Shown here piece after piece: positions 9,034 through 38,742 of a DNA stretch of 38,766 nucleotides. Source of the DNA: Planctomycetia bacterium. Lineage in GTDB: Bacteria > Planctomycetota > Phycisphaerae > Phycisphaerales > SM1A02. Location of the stretch: assembly GCA_005790565.1 (NCBI GenBank), contig SXUJ01000048.1:1-38766 (forward strand). The letters run 5' to 3'. The translations under genes and the position numbers were made by a program. Position 1 is the first letter of the stretch. Every line of letters begins with the position of its first letter. The notes under the pieces are model-generated. The model searched no databases, was not told the origin of the DNA, and saw only the letters and a list, made by a program, of their open reading frames with translations.

Positions 9034-10557
9034 TCAGCCCGAGTAACGGGAAGCGCCACTGCCCTCGACGCTCGAATACGCCATCGTCTTGAATCGCGTC
9101 GTATCACCGTCCCAGACGAGATGCACGGTGCCGGTTGGTCCGTTTCGCTGCTTGCAGATGATGAACTCAGCGGCGTTTTCCTTCTCCGGATTCGCGTCGA
9201 GCCAGTCTTGATCCTGCTTGTGGTAGTACGACTCGCGATGAAGCATGGCGACCACATCGGCGTCCTGCTCAATCGAACCAGACTCGCGAAGATCACTCAT
9301 GCGCGGACGATGACCCTCCCGCTGCTCGGCCGCGCGATTGAGCTGCGACAGGCAGAGCACTGGAATCTCCAATTCGCGCGCCATGGCCTTGATGCCACGG
9401 GAAATCTCCGAGACTTCGATCTGCCGACTCTCCACTCTCGTGCCGCTCGACATCAACTGCAAATAGTCGATGGCGATGAATCCAATCCCAAACTTCTCTT
9501 TCATGCGTCGCGCCTTGGAACGCATGCCAAGGAGAGAGAGCCCAGGCGAATCGTCGATGAAGATCGGTGCCTTAGAAAGATCGTCGCATGCACTCATCAG
9601 GCGACGGTGATCATCTCCGCCGAGCATATGTCGGCGCATCTTCTGTCCGTCAATGCCGCCGCGCGAACTGAGCATGCGCTGCACGAGCTGCTGACGGCTC
9701 ATTTCAATACTGAAAAGCGCGGAAGGCACTCCGAGGAGCGCGATATTCTCGATGAGATTGAGCGCCATCGCTGTTTTTCCCATCGAAGGGCGCGCGGCGA
9801 GGATAATCAACTCGCCATTCTGCAAGCCGTTGGTCACCTCATCGATGGCGGCGAAGCCCGTGCGGACGCCCATGAATCCCTTGCCATCGCTCGCCTCGAT
9901 GATGCGCATGGTTTCATCAATAAGGTCGCGCATCGAAGCGAAGCTCGCGCCCTCGCGGCGTTGCGCAATGCGAAAAATGCGCTGTTCCGCCCGTTCGAGC
10001 ACCTGCTGCGCTGGATCATGGCTCTGATGCGCCTCCGCAAGAATCTCTCCCGCGGCCTCAATGAGTTCGCGAACCGTCGCCTTCTCGCGAATGATGCGCG
10101 CGTAGTGAGGCGCGTGGACAGGACTCGCCACTGCTTCCGCAAGTGAGACGACATACTCCATGCCGCCCACCTCTTCGAGAATGCCACGATCGCGCAAGAG
10201 GTTCTGCAGCGTCACGGCATCGACGGACGCCGTCTTGTCGTAAAGTTCGATCATCGCGTCGTACACGCGCGCGTGTCGAGGCTGGGAGAAGTCAGCGCCG
10301 CTCCGAACGATTTGCAATACATCCCCGAGGACCTTCGGATCCCAAAGCACCGATCCAATCAGACTCTGCTCTGCCTCGATCGCCATCGGCGGCGTCGCTG
10401 CAAACAAATCAGCGACCTGCTGCAACGCAACGCCATCCGCCACAGGCTTCCGCTTCTTGAAGCGCCCGCGCTGCGAAGGGTCTTGGCCGAGGCCACCGTC
10501 CTTTGTTTCAAATGCTTCCACGGTGGTCCACCGTACCCGCGATTCACACGACCGCAC
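9034..10557 (-). CDS. dnaB: Replicative DNA helicase DnaB
   Basis: Hexameric 5'-3' helicase that unwinds DNA at the replication fork. The N-terminal primase-interaction domain (AIEAEQSLIGSVLWDPKVLG onward) is followed by the RecA-like domain with Walker A RPSMGKT (256-262), Walker B FIAIDYLQLM and the later motifs LSQLNRAAEQR and DLRESGSIEQDADVV. At about 507 aa the length is normal, with a basic N-terminal tail of about 55 residues. The start is uncertain: GTG at 10557 is used here, and GTG at 10521 (starting VEAFETKD) is equally possible. No intein or insertion is seen. It follows the HU-like gene by 47 nt and may share its promoter. Confidence 0.97.
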   Translation of the reverse strand: MRSCESRVRWTTVEAFETKDGGLGQDPSQRGRFKKRKPVADGVALQQVADLFAATPPMAIEAEQSLIGSVLWDPKVLGDVLQIVRSGADFSQPRHARVYDAMIELYDKTASVDAVTLQNLLRDRGILEEVGGMEYVVSLAEAVASPVHAPHYARIIREKATVRELIEAAGEILAEAHQSHDPAQQVLERAEQRIFRIAQRREGASFASMRDLIDETMRIIEASDGKGFMGVRTGFAAIDEVTNGLQNGELIILAARPSMGKTAMALNLIENIALLGVPSALFSIEMSRQQLVQRMLSSRGGIDGQKMRRHMLGGDDHRRLMSACDDLSKAPIFIDDSPGLSLLGMRSKARRMKEKFGIGFIAIDYLQLMSSGTRVESRQIEVSEISRGIKAMARELEIPVLCLSQLNRAAEQREGHRPRMSDLRESGSIEQDADVVAMLHRESYYHKQDQDWLDANPEKENAAEFIICKQRNGPTGTVHLVWDGDTTRFKTMAYSSVEGSGASRYSG

Positions 10558-33872: not shown

Positions 33873-33949
33873 GCCGAGCGCGTGATCGCTCGATTACTCT
33901 CGCGCCAAACCGCGCGCTCCTGAGCACCTTGCGCCTAGGCTCACCCACA

Positions 33950-34882
33950 ATGGATTCTTTCTTTCTTGGCCTCGCGATCGGAGTGAGTGTCACTTTGGTC
34001 GCGACCGCGATGGTCGTTCGACGCCGGCTTCGACGCTTGCGATACGCGGAGGACCGTGCGCGGCGGCAAGAACGGCTCGCGGAACTGGGTTCCATGACGG
34101 GTGGACTTGCCCATGAGATAAAGAATCCGCTCTCGACAATTCAGCTAAATGTGCAACTCGCACTGGAGGCGATCGACTTCGCTCTGCTTCCGGCGGAGGA
34201 TCGCGAGCAACTCTCCCGTAAGGTCGCGACGGTGGGGCGAGAAGCGGCGCGTCTACAGCACATCCTCGAAGACTTTCTGAAATTCGCGGGTCGCATTCAT
34301 CTCGCGCCCCTTCCGACGAATCTCTCGGGAACCCTCCAAGATCTCGCTGAGTTCTTCCGTCCGCAAGCAGAACGTAGCGGAGTGGTGCTTCGAGTAAGCG
34401 TTCCGAGTGCGCCTGTAGAGGCGCTCGTCGACGAGCAACTTCTCAAGCAGGCACTCCTGAATCTCATGATCAATGCGCTGCACGCACTGTCGACCATGCC
34501 ACCCGAGTCCAACCGCGAGTTGTTGCTGGTACTTGAGGCCCCTGATGCGACAAGCGCGAACCAGTCGGCCGTGCTTCATGTCGTCGACACTGGTCCGGGA
34601 ATCGCCATCGAACGCCGCGCAGAGATCTTTCGCCCCTATGTCGGGAGTCGAAAGGGTGGCGGCTCAGGACTGGGGCTCGCGGTCACGCGCCGGATCGTGG
34701 AGGAGCACGGCGGAAACATTGCATTGTCGAGTGAGCTTGGAAAGGGCAGCGACTTCTGCATCCGGCTTCCTCGCGAAGGTCCACCGGCAACGAAGGGCCT
34801 GAGCCTAGAAGACAACGCCCGCCGAGGAGTTCTCGACGCACTGCTTCGCCGCGCGGAACCACCCACTCCTTCTGCACGCTAG
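33950..34882 (+). CDS. Sensor-type histidine kinase, no partner regulator nearby
   Basis: A 310-aa kinase with one N-terminal TM helix (about 5-24) and no outside sensor domain. The H box is GGLAHEIKNPLSTIQLNVQL, with the phosphorylated His in AHEIKNP near residue 52, a form typical of NtrB/AtoS-like kinases. It is followed by the N box LLNLMINALHAL, the G1 box DTGPGI, the F box EIFRPY and the G2 box GGGSGLGLAV. The start is ATG 33950; an upstream in-frame TTG at 33929 is rejected. A 35-residue Arg/Pro-rich tail follows. No response regulator is encoded in the window. Its stop directly abuts that of the convergent topoisomerase gene. Confidence 0.92.
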   Translation: MDSFFLGLAIGVSVTLVATAMVVRRRLRRLRYAEDRARRQERLAELGSMTGGLAHEIKNPLSTIQLNVQLALEAIDFALLPAEDREQLSRKVATVGREAARLQHILEDFLKFAGRIHLAPLPTNLSGTLQDLAEFFRPQAERSGVVLRVSVPSAPVEALVDEQLLKQALLNLMINALHALSTMPPESNRELLLVLEAPDATSANQSAVLHVVDTGPGIAIERRAEIFRPYVGSRKGGGSGLGLAVTRRIVEEHGGNIALSSELGKGSDFCIRLPREGPPATKGLSLEDNARRGVLDALLRRAEPPTPSAR

Positions 34883-36034
34883 TCAATCAATCCAGTCACG
34901 CGCTTTGAGCCGCTCCGGGACATAGGTGTCCGTCACATAGGAGATGTCCTTGGTGATGAGCGACTCGACCTCCATCTTGAATCCGTTCTTCAAGAGTTGA
35001 TCAATCTCCCTCTGCCAACCCTTGTGATGCTCAAACCATGGGTACGCGGCGATTTCGCCGGCGCGCTTGATGTCGTTTTCAGTCAAGTCAATTTTTACGG
35101 CGTCGTCGAGGTCGCAGGCACGGAAGTCCTTCGCGCGAATGCCGAGAAACTTCGCCTCGGGAATCGCGAGTCGCGAACTCTCGAATGCGAGGGAGATGGA
35201 ACCCTGTTTGATCACGCTGTAGATGTAATGTCCCCACGGATCACAATCGAGGACGCAGATGAGTGGCAGTTTGAGTTCCTGCGTCATCCGTTGCAGTAGG
35301 CGACGACAGCCGCGAGGCGGCTGCCCGGCGCCGTGCGTGAGAATGCAATTGTTCTTTTCCCAGAAGCGATCCTCGTTGAAGCGATTCCAAACCGTGCCCT
35401 TCTCGACATGCAGAATGAACTTCGCTTCACACTTTTTGAACTGAATGATGTCTGGTTCGACAATCGAAGGGAGGGCGTAGCCGCCGGATCCCATCTTTCG
35501 GCAGTTGATCTCGTCGCCACGGTCAACAATCGTGATGTTGCCCACCATGGAACCGCGATTCTCTGCGAAGACATGAAGTTCTTCGCGCAGCGCCCCAAGC
35601 GCCACTTCCAGATCCTCCAGGATCGGATCGGACTCGTCCTGCCCATCGAAGGTGTTCTCGCGAGTCCCCGCGACGGTGTGTTTGGCTTTGTAGAACACGC
35701 CACGGAGACTGCTTGTCTTGCCTGCCGCGATCAGGTCATTGATCGTGTTGGAATGCAACATCGTCTGCATGAACTGCTTTGCTGTCTTGAGATCGAAGAG
35801 CGGGCGAGCAGCTGTTGCTGAGCCCATCTCGAGGATCCCCCGCTTCTTGTTCCAAATCGTGTTGGATTTCGCGCGCGTGGGAATCTGGATGATTGGGTCT
35901 TGCCCGCTGAGTGCGCGGCGCGCCATTTCCTCCGCAAGCTCCAAGATCTTCTTCGTGGTCTTGGCGTCGCGCTCCTTCAATCTCCCGGTGGCGGGTTGCG
36001 CAGCATCAGATGTCGTTGTTTTCTTGGCGGCCAT
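34883..36034 (-). CDS. top6A: DNA topoisomerase VI subunit A (Spo11/Top6A family)
   Basis: Catalytic subunit of a type IIB topoisomerase that makes double-strand breaks with 2-nt 5' overhangs to pass DNA. In 383 aa I see the winged-helix active site SLRGVFYKAKH with the catalytic Tyr115, and a TOPRIM domain with the Mg-binding Glu211 (HVEKGTVWNR) and CVLDCDPWGHYIY (Asp263, Asp265). All key residues are in place. AAGGAG lies 10 nt upstream of the ATG. It follows the B subunit gene by 32 nt. The first 25 residues are a Lys/Thr/Ala-rich tail. Topoisomerase VI is typical of archaea and plants and rare in bacteria. Confidence 0.95.
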   Translation of the reverse strand: MAAKKTTTSDAAQPATGRLKERDAKTTKKILELAEEMARRALSGQDPIIQIPTRAKSNTIWNKKRGILEMGSATAARPLFDLKTAKQFMQTMLHSNTINDLIAAGKTSSLRGVFYKAKHTVAGTRENTFDGQDESDPILEDLEVALGALREELHVFAENRGSMVGNITIVDRGDEINCRKMGSGGYALPSIVEPDIIQFKKCEAKFILHVEKGTVWNRFNEDRFWEKNNCILTHGAGQPPRGCRRLLQRMTQELKLPLICVLDCDPWGHYIYSVIKQGSISLAFESSRLAIPEAKFLGIRAKDFRACDLDDAVKIDLTENDIKRAGEIAAYPWFEHHKGWQREIDQLLKNGFKMEVESLITKDISYVTDTYVPERLKARDWID

Positions 36035-36066
36035 AGCTATCGAACTCCTTCGAACTCAAACATGCA

Positions 36067-38130
36067 TCAAAAGAGGCTGGGCGTATCGGCGACGCTGCGC
36101 TTGTTCGGCTTCTTCACACTTGGCGCTGATGAAACGGCGGGCGCGGAAACTTTGCGAGCAGTCGCGTCCTTTGGCGCTCGCGCGCGCCTTGGCGCGCTGG
36201 CGGGGACATCGAACTCCACGGGCGCCGCTGGAATCACCGCTCCAGAACCGAGGTTGGGGATCGCTCCCTCGACAATGATCACGCCTTCGTCATCCTGCTC
36301 CTCACTCGGATCGGGCGCTTGCTTGCGCACGCGGCCTTCATCATCGAGTTCCACATCCGCAACCGCCGTTTTCGCCCGCGCCTGGAGGAGCAGCGCGTCA
36401 TAGATCGGCTTGGGATTGCGACCGGTGATCTGATGCAGCGCCTTCGCGATTTCCCCGATGTATCGCTCGAAGACATCGCGCCGATCACTCTCGCGCTTCA
36501 TCTTCAGGCGCTTGCGAAGATACGTTCCGAGCTTGCGACCACACTCCATGAGCGCGAGCTTCATTTCCTTGCGAATCTCGTCGTAGTCGGCGATTGCTTC
36601 CTTCGATTCACTCGTGAATGGAACCCACACGCTCGCCATGTGAATCATCACCACCAAGGGCCCGGTAGGCACATTGCCTCGCGGCTGCTGGAGGCCGTAG
36701 TTCTTCCATGCCGTTTCGGCGATCGCCTTGAAGGAACTGCACGCTGACTGTTGGAAGAGCAACGGTACGCGATTGGCAAACCGGATCACTCGAGCGGACT
36801 CTTCGCATGGAAGATCGCCGCCGAACGCAATCGCCGCTTCGATTTGGAATGGCCGTCCGCGATACACCGCTGCATCGCGGCTCGAAGCCGCGTAAAACTC
36901 CGCGCGCACACCCTTCAACATTCCCGCGAGCATCTGCCGCACACCAATGGGGGCGAGGCAATCCGTTGGTGGCGGTGCCAACTTGGTGGTTTCAAACTCT
37001 TTGAACAACTTCTCTGCAACCGGCGGATCGATGTCGCCCGCCCGCGTGCGTGTGGTCACGCCGACCTTCTTGCACATCGCCGCAGCTGTGACCGCCGAAA
37101 CTCGGCAAAATCGCTCTTGCAAGAAACTGAAAAGTGACCCCTTTTCTGTCGCCTCGTAGTCCTTCAACATCTGCAACAGAATCCCGAGTTCGATGCCCTT
37201 GGGGTGAGGTTGGATCTCCTGCGTCTCTCGCGGCAACTCTTGCACGCCGCGCGGAAAAATGATCACCCCATGGGTGTCAGTCGTGGTCGTCGCACTCGAG
37301 GCCGCGCTCGCCGCGCCTTGCGTCACAAGCGGAACATCATCCTCTTCCGTCGCACTCTCGCGCGAGGGCGGAACAAAGACGAACTTCGCGTGCGGGTTCG
37401 CGATCGCCGTAAGTTCGAGAAACTCATCAACCGAACCTCGGCCGCGCTGATATCGCCCTTCCAACTCGATCGAAACACTCGTCCCCGTCGGAAACTCGAT
37501 CGCATCGAGAAACCCCTTTTCACTCGCGAGAGCGCGAGCTCCGAGCGTGACACCGCGCAATCGCTCAGGAGGGAAATCCTCCGTCTCGACATCGGTGATG
37601 ACCTCTGCGCGATTCGTTTTCGTGTTCATCGCAAGTTCAATGCGATGCGCGAGTGCGTTGGGCTTGGGCCGCGTCACGATTGTCATCGGACGGCCGGTCG
37701 TAATCAATCCGTACATACCAGCCGCAGAGATGCCAATCCCCTGCTGACCACGAGACATTTTCAATCGATGGAACTTCGATCCGTAGAGCAATCGTCCGAA
37801 AATGTTCTCGACCTGCTTGCGCACAATCCCAGGACCGTTGTCCACGATGGTGACGCGATAGCGAGAACTCTTCACGGTCGCGGCGCGATCGGGTTGGAGG
37901 TCCTCAATGACCACTGCGAGTTCAGGGAGAATGCCGCCCTCCTCGCACGCGTCGAGTGAGTTGTCGACAGCCTCCTTCACCGTCGTTAGGAGCGCCTTTC
38001 GCGGGTTGTCGAATCCCAAGAGGTGCCGATTCTTTGCAAAAAACTCGCTCACCGAGATGTCGCGCTGCCGCGCGCCCATCTCCTCAGCGTTCGAACCTCG
38101 TCGCTTCACATCCTTGGCTGCACTGGTCAT
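36067..38130 (-). CDS. top6B: DNA topoisomerase VI subunit B (GHKL ATPase)
   Basis: ATP-driven clamp subunit of topoisomerase VI. The ATG at 38130 gives 687 aa; a frame extension to 38223 is rejected because the conserved start begins later (ISVSEFFAKNRHLLGFDNPRKAL). The GHKL ATP site has KEAVDNSLDACEE (catalytic Glu53, Asn57), VDNGPGI (97-102) and GQQGIGISAAGMYGL (128 on). The H2TH and transducer regions follow, with the invariant-type Lys in the RGNVPTGPLVVMIHMASVWVPF region still to be placed. An acidic then Ser/Thr/Ala-rich insert (near residues 265-300) and a basic Pro/Ala-rich tail of about 80 residues are additions to the archaeal plan. It precedes subunit A in an operon and is divergent from ndk. 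Confidence 0.95.
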   Translation of the reverse strand: MTSAAKDVKRRGSNAEEMGARQRDISVSEFFAKNRHLLGFDNPRKALLTTVKEAVDNSLDACEEGGILPELAVVIEDLQPDRAATVKSSRYRVTIVDNGPGIVRKQVENIFGRLLYGSKFHRLKMSRGQQGIGISAAGMYGLITTGRPMTIVTRPKPNALAHRIELAMNTKTNRAEVITDVETEDFPPERLRGVTLGARALASEKGFLDAIEFPTGTSVSIELEGRYQRGRGSVDEFLELTAIANPHAKFVFVPPSRESATEEDDVPLVTQGAASAASSATTTTDTHGVIIFPRGVQELPRETQEIQPHPKGIELGILLQMLKDYEATEKGSLFSFLQERFCRVSAVTAAAMCKKVGVTTRTRAGDIDPPVAEKLFKEFETTKLAPPPTDCLAPIGVRQMLAGMLKGVRAEFYAASSRDAAVYRGRPFQIEAAIAFGGDLPCEESARVIRFANRVPLLFQQSACSSFKAIAETAWKNYGLQQPRGNVPTGPLVVMIHMASVWVPFTSESKEAIADYDEIRKEMKLALMECGRKLGTYLRKRLKMKRESDRRDVFERYIGEIAKALHQITGRNPKPIYDALLLQARAKTAVADVELDDEGRVRKQAPDPSEEQDDEGVIIVEGAIPNLGSGAVIPAAPVEFDVPASAPRRARAPKDATARKVSAPAVSSAPSVKKPNKRSVADTPSLF

Positions 38131-38233
38131 ATCGCGTGTGGCGCTCCATCGCCTTTGCTGTTTTGCGAAGGGAACATAGCTCAGATGGCGCGTCGAGGAA
38201 ACAACGCGCACACGAGATACCAATGGATTCGGT

Positions 38234-38271: not shown

Positions 38272-38742
38272 ATGGAAACAACACTCCTCATCCTCAAGCC
38301 AGACGCCGTTCAACGCGGCCTCATGGGTCGAATCATCACTCGCTTCGAAGAGAAGGGTCTCCAGATTGTCGGAGCCAAACTCGCGATGATCTCTCCCGAA
38401 ACCGCCGCGACGCACTACAAGGACCACCAAGGCAAGGGCTTTTATGCTGGACTTGTCGGATTCATGACAAGCGCGCCGGTGCTCATCCTCGCTGTTCGCG
38501 GGTTGGGTGCGATTACGATCTGCCGGAACCTCATGGGAGCAACCTTCGGCTCAAAGGCAGCCGCAGGAACGATCCGTGGCGACTTCGGGGTTTCAAACTC
38601 GTTCAACCTCATCCACGGGTCCGATAGTCCAGAAGCTGCGACTCGTGAGCGTGGTATCTTCTTTGGGCCTGGCGAAGTGCTCGACTACAGCCGCGCGGGT
38701 GATCGATGGGTCTACGACAGCTCGTCTGGAAAGCCAGAGTGA
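38272..38742 (+). CDS. ndk: Nucleoside diphosphate kinase
   Basis: Moves the gamma phosphate from ATP to other nucleoside diphosphates through a phospho-His intermediate, balancing NTP/dNTP pools. The 156-aa protein shows TLLILKPDAVQRGLMGRII at the N-terminus (Lys9), RNLMGATFGSKAAAGTIRG for nucleotide binding and the catalytic His115 in NLIHGSDSPE. It is 10-15 residues longer than usual, the addition being a C-terminal end. No ribosome binding site stands out before the ATG. Complete and divergent from top6B. Confidence 0.97.
   Translation: METTLLILKPDAVQRGLMGRIITRFEEKGLQIVGAKLAMISPETAATHYKDHQGKGFYAGLVGFMTSAPVLILAVRGLGAITICRNLMGATFGSKAAAGTIRGDFGVSNSFNLIHGSDSPEAATRERGIFFGPGEVLDYSRAGDRWVYDSSSGKPE

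Follow-up and report, generated by a model that had tools for sequence, protein, structure and literature searches.

The window analysed here is a stretch of 38,766 nucleotides (positions 1 to 38,766 of contig SXUJ01000048.1, assembly GCA_005790565.1) from a Planctomycetia bacterium of the order Phycisphaerales, and it carries near its end an operon for the two subunits, Top6B and Top6A, of topoisomerase VI (topo VI). To judge from its sequence, the operon encodes a true and complete topo VI, ordinary for its lineage, which probably acts as a dedicated decatenase in the place of topoisomerase IV (topo IV), with gyrase taking care of supercoiling, and which would be a hybrid of A and B subunits. 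The idea that such an enzyme replaces topo IV has already been published (Allen and Maxwell, 2024); the new parts are the A/B mosaic and a motif in the tail of Top6B.

The topo VI operon

The operon lies on the minus strand in the order B-A, with the following parts.

36067..38130, minus strand: top6B, topo VI subunit B, 687 amino acids, with GHKL ATPase, H2TH region, transducer and tail
36035..36066, minus strand: intergenic gap of 32 bases, from the top6B stop to the top6A start
34883..36034, minus strand: top6A, topo VI subunit A, 383 amino acids, with winged-helix and TOPRIM domains; type 1 (Sulfolobus-like)
35690..35692, minus strand: codon of catalytic Tyr115 of Top6A, placed by arithmetic
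35240..35248, minus strand: codons of Asp263-x-Asp265 in the TOPRIM domain of Top6A, placed by arithmetic

A preliminary description of this DNA had reported a complete top6B-top6A operon beside gyrase, with all catalytic residues in both subunits, and this is borne out by the coordinates, the short gap and the passing of Pfam and NCBIfam cut-offs. Top6A scores 189 bits with TOP6A-Spo11_Toprim, 55 with TP6A_N and 37 with Topo_VI_alpha, Top6B scores 188 bits with Topo-VIb_trans and 31 with HATPase_c, and the cut-offs of the NCBIfam equivalogs NF003333 (507 bits against 465), NF003218 (590 against 274) and TIGR01052 (432 against 381) are all exceeded. The top6B gene starts with an ATG at 38130, with an in-frame TTG further upstream at 38223, and B lies directly 5' of A with a gap of less than 300 bases at 42 of 80 related loci.

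The catalytic residues were scored from alignment columns. In Top6A, Tyr115, Glu211, Asp263 and Asp265 are invariant in 58 of 58 aligned rows, while the GHKL residues of Top6B (Glu53, Asn57, Asp97, Gly99, Gly101, Gly131 and Gly133) are invariant in 55 of 56 rows, the 56th being truncated by the end of the retrieved stretch, and Lys510 of Top6B is invariant in 56/56. Top6B matches subunit B of Methanosarcina mazei topo VI (PDB 2q2e_B; E=3e-130) with residues 15 to 567 aligned in three pieces, and Top6A matches subunit A of Sulfolobus shibatae (PDB 2zbk_A; E=2e-73). The region of Top6B between GHKL and transducer is present, as the span 291-567 aligns to 2q2e_B, and this span presumably includes the H2TH domain. 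The genes thus encode together what characterises a type IIB enzyme, an A subunit with the tyrosine and TOPRIM and a B subunit with GHKL and transducer. In Spo11/topo VIB-like complexes the B-like partner lacks H2TH and has a degenerate GHKL domain (PMC11302465), whereas both are intact in the window's B. A Spo11/topo VIB-like identity is ruled out by the intact GHKL residues and interdomain region, and the case that the preliminary description had named as its refutation, of distant Spo11/MutL-like proteins without topoisomerase partners, did not materialise.

Distribution of topo VI and exclusion of a second type IIA enzyme

In a census sample of 392 genomes spread evenly over Planctomycetota, Top6B is present in 191 and Top6A in 187, one of the latter being a weak match without Top6B (G065). 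The window's family has Top6B in 10/10 genomes and Top6A in 9/10 (G364 is without A), and Top6B is found in 13 of 21 genomes from the remainder of the order and in all 10 from the remainder of the class. Given these frequencies in the phylum and the family, the earlier characterisation of topo VI as sparse in bacteria is untrue for the window's lineage; its presence in bacteria had also been published before, in 17 families that include planctomycetes such as Pirellula and Thermogutta (PMC11302465).

The window's genome has one PF00521 protein, which carries a GyrA box (QGRGGVG), and one PF00204 protein of GyrB type, whose match sits at a contig end; a scan with these two profiles found no second type IIA enzyme, that is, no box-less GyrA/ParC homologue with a ParE partner. 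With one GyrA-type and one GyrB-type gene there is therefore no sign of topo IV in this genome. The survey of gyrA/B and parC/E that the preliminary description had proposed thus returns gyrase only, and its statement that gyrase and topo IV do the job fails here.

Across the phylum, copy numbers were counted in the 384 of 392 genomes with a PF00521 match, as follows.

All 384 genomes: topo VI with one copy 167, topo VI with two or more 19, no topo VI with one 92, no topo VI with two or more 106
Genomes with a completeness of 90% or more and a contamination of 5% or less (217 genomes): 112, 10, 33 and 62 in the same order
At least 95% complete (111 genomes): 50, 1, 17 and 43

Topo VI genomes with two copies number 10, against 16.1 expected when labels are permuted inside each family (9 informative families, p 5e-5); among high-quality genomes they number 4 against 7.3 (6 families, p 0.004). 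Independent pairs were drawn on a GyrA tree of 64 hand-chosen rows, which is enriched in two-copy genomes and from which the extra GyrA-clade copies of G245, G300 and G119 were omitted for this test; of 14 pairs none changes in the same direction, about seven change in opposite directions and about seven show no difference (median p 0.016). Within the window's order, family f4 has two copies and no topo VI in 7/7 genomes, and beyond the window's family a single copy is seen in 13/13 genomes with topo VI.

The second copies are of more than one kind. Classification of 75 GyrA/ParC-type proteins from chosen genomes, with the second-copy fragment of G116 omitted from the trees and the open reading frames of four ParC rows picked by profile, yielded a GyrA clade (47), a box-less sister clade (16) and a ParC-like clade (12). 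The GyrA box is found in 45/47 members of the GyrA clade, in 0/16 of the sister clade and in none of the ParC-like clade, which is read as canonical ParC from its lower PF00521 score and its deep branch in a tree built without an Escherichia coli row. Members of the sister clade were found in 16 genomes, from 12 families; topo VI is missing from 15 of these genomes, the exception being G186 (6% contamination). A second GyrB-type gene occurs in all 13 sister-clade genomes tested, and also in G185, a two-copy f4 genome outside the classified set; its frame measures 639-696 amino acids in 11 of these 14, the other three frames having 385 (truncated where the contig stops), 762 and 931. In 8 of the 13 genomes no more than about 3 kb separates this second gene from the GyrA-like one. 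By sequence, this clade looks like a topo IV built from gyrase inside the phylum. A further box-less GyrA-like protein, L236, forms a long branch next to the GyrA clade, and its genome (G245, contig C45, 5% contamination) encodes topo VI as well as gyrase and a ParC-type protein.

Topo VI and a second type IIA enzyme thus largely exclude each other phylum-wide, with switches inside families, and several observations weigh against a stricter reading. Using the box-less clade alone, the independent pairs come to 0 in the same direction, 5.2 in the opposite and 8.8 without difference (median p 0.06). Topo VI occurs together with a ParC-type second copy in 12 genomes by score, or 14 when fragments beside GyrA are counted (families f26, f32, f41, f63 and f71; five of these genomes are in the tree). 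Gyrase alone, with no topo VI, is found in 33 of the 217 good genomes, and G172 has no topo VI and no replacement was found in it, while its genus mates G002, G034 and G095 have topo VI, so that G172 represents a recent loss or an assembly gap. The remaining 5 of the 19 multi-copy topo VI genomes comprise G186 with its box-less GyrA-like protein, two with two GyrA-clade copies and two with split genes. Coexistence with ParC-type genes and the gyrase-only genomes therefore mean that topo VI does not exclude topo IV in every case and is not indispensable.

A probable role in decatenation

From this exclusion it follows that chromosome decatenation in place of topo IV is the likeliest role of topo VI. 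Allen and Maxwell (2024; PMC11302465) describe the same enzyme, with planctomycetes that have gyrase and lack topo IV, and report that gyrase is present in all topo VI bacteria and topo IV alongside only in Pseudomonadota and Terrabacteria, suggesting a decatenase role where there is no topo IV. The present census agrees with this pattern, yet ParC-type genes accompany topo VI in some Planctomycetota genomes. M. mazei topo VI has been described as a preferential decatenase (PMC8837201), and Allen and Maxwell mention as unpublished that it complements an E. coli parE mutant (PMC11302465). Topo IV (ParC/ParE) would share its role with the planctomycete enzyme and is distributed reciprocally to it, while its architecture is type IIA as opposed to the type IIB of topo VI.

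Gene content, catalytic residues, the exclusion pattern and the A/B discordance are direct observations, whereas A2B2 activity and decatenation in vivo are our inference. Following the established biochemistry of topo VI, two B subunits would bind ATP and close upon a transported duplex, two A subunits would cut a second duplex via Tyr115 with TOPRIM-bound metal, and the transported duplex would pass before the break is resealed. In the window's enzyme the A subunits would come from a lineage allied to Sulfolobus Top6A, and the B subunits from a Euryarchaeota-like lineage common to the phylum's other topo VI type.

Another explanation is that topo VI is an accessory enzyme for a special task, such as DNA repair or the maintenance of plasmids or prophages, and not the main decatenase. 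The genomes that hold it beside ParC-type genes would fit such a role, as would the many relatives that survive with gyrase alone; its presence in the window's family (Top6B throughout, Top6A in all but one), gains and losses that run opposite to those of the second type IIA enzyme within families, and the lack of any mobile-element gene among the four flanking genes scanned make it improbable.

Discordance between the A and B subunits

Phylogeny of both subunits was among the checks that the preliminary description had proposed; that description overlooked the A/B mosaic, as it did the Top6B tail motif. For archaea, the A and B trees are reported to match archaeal taxonomy broadly (Villain et al., 2022; PMC9348778). 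Based on 53 A rows and 52 B rows from chosen genomes phylum-wide, Top6A splits into two deep groups, type 1 (22 rows), which comprises ten topo VI genomes taken from the window's order together with members of nine other families, and type 2 (31 rows), to which the other families of the window's class belong. Type 1 A has a mean identity of 40.2% to S. shibatae A and 33% to type 2 A, against 55 and 64% within the types, while type 2 A is 55% identical to Methanocaldococcus jannaschii A. For each of the 22 type 1 rows S. shibatae A is nearer than any type 2 row, and for each of the 31 type 2 rows M. jannaschii A is nearer than any type 1 row. One loop of A has 24 residues in type 1 as in S. shibatae, and 29-31 in type 2 as in the M. 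jannaschii, M. mazei and haloarchaeal proteins.

The B subunits, in contrast, are barely divided. All 52 B rows are nearer to M. mazei than to S. shibatae, both types being 48.5-48.6% identical to the former and 35% to the latter, and identity between types (52.2%) is close to that within them (54.8 and 55.6%). The two types do separate in the B tree (22 vs 30 rows), with a Shimodaira-Hasegawa-like approximate likelihood ratio (SH-aLRT) support of 99.9 on a branch of 0.13. The ratio of A to B tree distances is 1.21 and 1.04 within types and 3.12 between them. As A is deeply split and B barely, the A and B of at least one type differ in history.

The same discordance is visible against the two archaeal enzymes of known structure. 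The M. mazei enzyme (2q2e) has a B like the window's, with the same GQQGIG box, and an A that is only 32% identical, with a longer loop (30 vs 24); the S. shibatae enzyme (2zbk) has an A like the window's, with 40% mean identity to type 1 and the same short loop, and a B that is 35% identical, with GMYGLG in place of GQQGIG. The window's enzyme appears by these comparisons to be a hybrid of an A allied to Sulfolobus Top6A and a B of Methanosarcina kind, the B belonging, on its sequence relationships, to a lineage common to planctomycetes with a Methanocaldococcus-like A. Tentatively, we infer that A was swapped within bacteria and not already in an archaeal donor.

Some points weigh against the hybrid. 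Archaeal reference rows are few (5 A and 4 B, with no Methanococcales B among them), the resemblance of type 2 A to S. shibatae is about as strong as that to M. mazei (12 of 31 rows are nearer to S. shibatae), and long branches were flagged by the tree program. In the approximately unbiased (AU) test a single planctomycete A clade is rejected with S. shibatae included (p 5e-5), and not rejected when its long row is left out (p 0.29). Since the AU result depends on this row, the case for a mosaic leans in equal measure on the tree and on similarity, loop length and distance ratios.

An alternative, though an unlikely one, would be that two archaeal donors each passed on a whole operon, with no exchange within bacteria and a type 1 donor that already combined its A with a Euryarchaeota-like B. 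Allen and Maxwell found two bacterial clusters in both the A and B trees, one of the A clusters lying next to Methanococcales and the other next to a small number of DPANN and Euryarchaeota, and they interpret the clusters as at least two transfers of A and B both (PMC11302465); the separation of types in our B tree points the same way. Two donors ought, however, to leave both subunits distant, unless the B subunits of the donors resembled each other, and B is scarcely further apart between types than within them, in contrast to A. That type 1 and type 2 A form a single lineage in which a fast-evolving type 1 merely looks foreign, which the AU test without S. shibatae would allow, is very improbable, as a fast lineage is expected to be less like everything, whereas every type 1 row is nearer to S. 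shibatae than to type 2 and shares its loop length, and within-type A distances are ordinary.

Type 1 and type 2 A were never found together in the nine genomes checked. Unusual gene sets include L284, L285 and L286 (G076, G171 and G141, all of family f53), second divergent Top6A-like genes next to a normal type 1 A, to which they are 31-36% identical over about 200 residues, and two type 2 Top6A genes on separate contigs of one genome (L088 and L089 in G054). Genomes of families f72, f81, f98 and part of f53 each give two matches to the Top6B transducer (about 1e-34), pointing to an insertion within the domain or to two genes.

The tail of Top6B and its LF motif

Beyond its transducer, Top6B ends in a tail that closes with a short motif.

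36070..36405, minus strand: C-terminal tail of Top6B, residues 576-687, poorly conserved, with low model confidence from about residue 604
36070..36087, minus strand: terminal DTPSLF of Top6B with a conserved LF motif, clamp-binding-like

The AlphaFold model of Top6B is poor, the transducer included (mean predicted local distance difference test, pLDDT, 56), and lends weak support to an unfolded tail; in M. mazei B the corresponding region is an immunoglobulin-like domain (PMC11302465), whereas no fold is predicted for the tail of the window's B. In 25 aligned Phycisphaerales B, the mean majority share is 0.41 over the stretch 620-681, against 0.84, 0.84, 1.0 and 1.0 for the D, P, L and F of the D.P.LF end. 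Among 61 Phycisphaerales loci with a B end, 52 terminate exactly in LF and 8 in LF followed by 1-3 residues, while L169 has a broken reading.

Phylum-wide, an [LM]F motif beyond the transducer is found in 15 of 22 type 1 B rows (8 of 13 families; 10/10 rows in the window's order), and 7/22 have no LF motif. Exactly QxxLF occurs in 8 of the 22 rows, from six families and never with L at position 2, whereas 5000 shuffles, which ignore kinship, gave a mean of 0.06 and a maximum of 2. The [LM]F motif is absent from all 30 type 2 B rows, which end 32-39 residues past the same point; as controls, QxxLF lies in the B body of 2/52 planctomycete rows and Q..[LM]F in 0/53 A rows.

In five genomes of the order, DnaE has QDTFF, QSTFF, QLSMF, QGGLF or ADFLF at one aligned place, which we take to be its clamp site. 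The beta sliding clamp is bound through a motif of consensus Q-L-x-L-F, which often sits at a disordered C-terminus (PMC4549789). The window's TPSLF matches QLxLF at positions 4 and 5 and not at Q1 and L2, and PTLF forms in its kin (DGPTLF) connect TPSLF to the QPTLF of remoter type 1 rows. On this resemblance the Top6B motif, degenerate in the window, would be predicted to bind the clamp. In the last 120 residues of the 75 GyrA/ParC-type proteins, QxxLF occurs in 4, all of the ParC-type clade (4/12) and all from genomes without topo VI, and in none of the GyrA clade (47) or its sister clade (16). These four, L201, L247, L251 and L253 (G088, G374, G354 and G058), have QLKLF, QLQLF, QMELF and QMDLF within their last 15 residues, QMDLF at the very end of its protein.

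A tentative proposal, which we regard as a real possibility at somewhat less than even confidence, is that type 1 topo VI is a natural hybrid wired into the replisome, whose disordered Top6B tail would tether decatenation to DnaN behind the fork. The motif might instead bind a partner other than the clamp, in the manner of the acidic C-terminal tip of SSB (DDDIPF), or be a mere tail end, which we likewise hold possible at less than even confidence. The many Phycisphaerales loci that stop exactly at LF, often after acidic residues, the missing Gln at position 1 of the window's motif and the type 1 rows without any LF motif speak for such a tail; an SSB-like free end fails, however, to explain the internal QxxLF of other type 1 B (QPTLFDTG, QRNLFAED and QGTLFDES).

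Genomic setting and origin

The host assembly (2.66 Mb, 177 contigs) is given as 100% complete and 2.89% contaminated, and the operon is flanked by the following genes.

33929-34882, convergent with the operon: histidine kinase gene
38272-38742, divergent from the operon: NDK gene

The flanking genes scanned with Pfam (PNPase, cold-shock protein, histidine kinase and NDK) are all bacterial. A scan of GTDB contigs gave 557 Top6A loci, and among the best 80 most titles name Phycisphaerales, Planctomycetota or labels close to these, and a handful are uncultured or clearly mislabelled bins; relatives whose A is up to 96% identical lie on contigs titled Phycisphaerales or Planctomycetota. We take the organism to be an uncultured representative of the Phycisphaerales. 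With these bacterial flanks and close planctomycete relatives, archaeal contamination is very unlikely. The shared neighbours gave no functional hint, PNPase, cold-shock protein, histidine kinase and NDK being found at 27, 28, 34 and 39 of the 80 loci (1e-12). Codon use resembles that of the neighbours, as first described, with a GC content at third codon positions of 0.69-0.72 in top6A and top6B against 0.63-0.76 in five neighbour genes, while among the seven genes measured top6A has the lowest overall GC (0.561); the earlier judgement that any transfer was old appears right.

Phage origin was rejected, Top6A having no match in 50,697 phage records, and so was plasmid origin, as Top6A matches just 3 plasmid records, all haloarchaeal, and Top6B the same three and two more partially. 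Two scans of viral_contigs with Top6A as the only query returned one relative in all, L205 (IMGVR_UViG_3300037657_000197), a type 1 Top6A filed as viral and 62% identical to that of G121, which may be a planctomycete fragment or a provirus. A DnaB replicative helicase gene (Pfam) lies at 9034-10557 of the window, 24 kb from the operon. In G337 (contig C16, 189558-192404) the top6A match is followed on its own strand, after about 1.8 kb, by a gyrB-type gene, resembling the gyrase/topo VI neighbourhood of some archaea.

Significance

The A/B discordance, the box-less GyrA-like enzyme and the tail motif are not described in the available text of Allen and Maxwell (2024; PMC11302465), and searches of open-licence literature, in which subscription journals are largely missing, returned no title or abstract beginning that mentions a bacterial A/B mosaic, the GyrA-like alternative or topo VI clamp binding. 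According to Allen and Maxwell, further work is needed on the reason that bacteria retain topo VI (PMC11302465). Repeated swaps between topo VI and a second type IIA enzyme, even inside families, are a natural experiment by which the replacement of topo IV by topo VI becomes testable. A working hybrid of distant A and B subunits would reveal how loosely the two need to match. If the tail motif does bind the clamp, it would connect a decatenase directly with the replication fork, and the ParC ends with the consensus or nearly so in genomes without topo VI would make a clamp-tethered decatenase a convergent solution.

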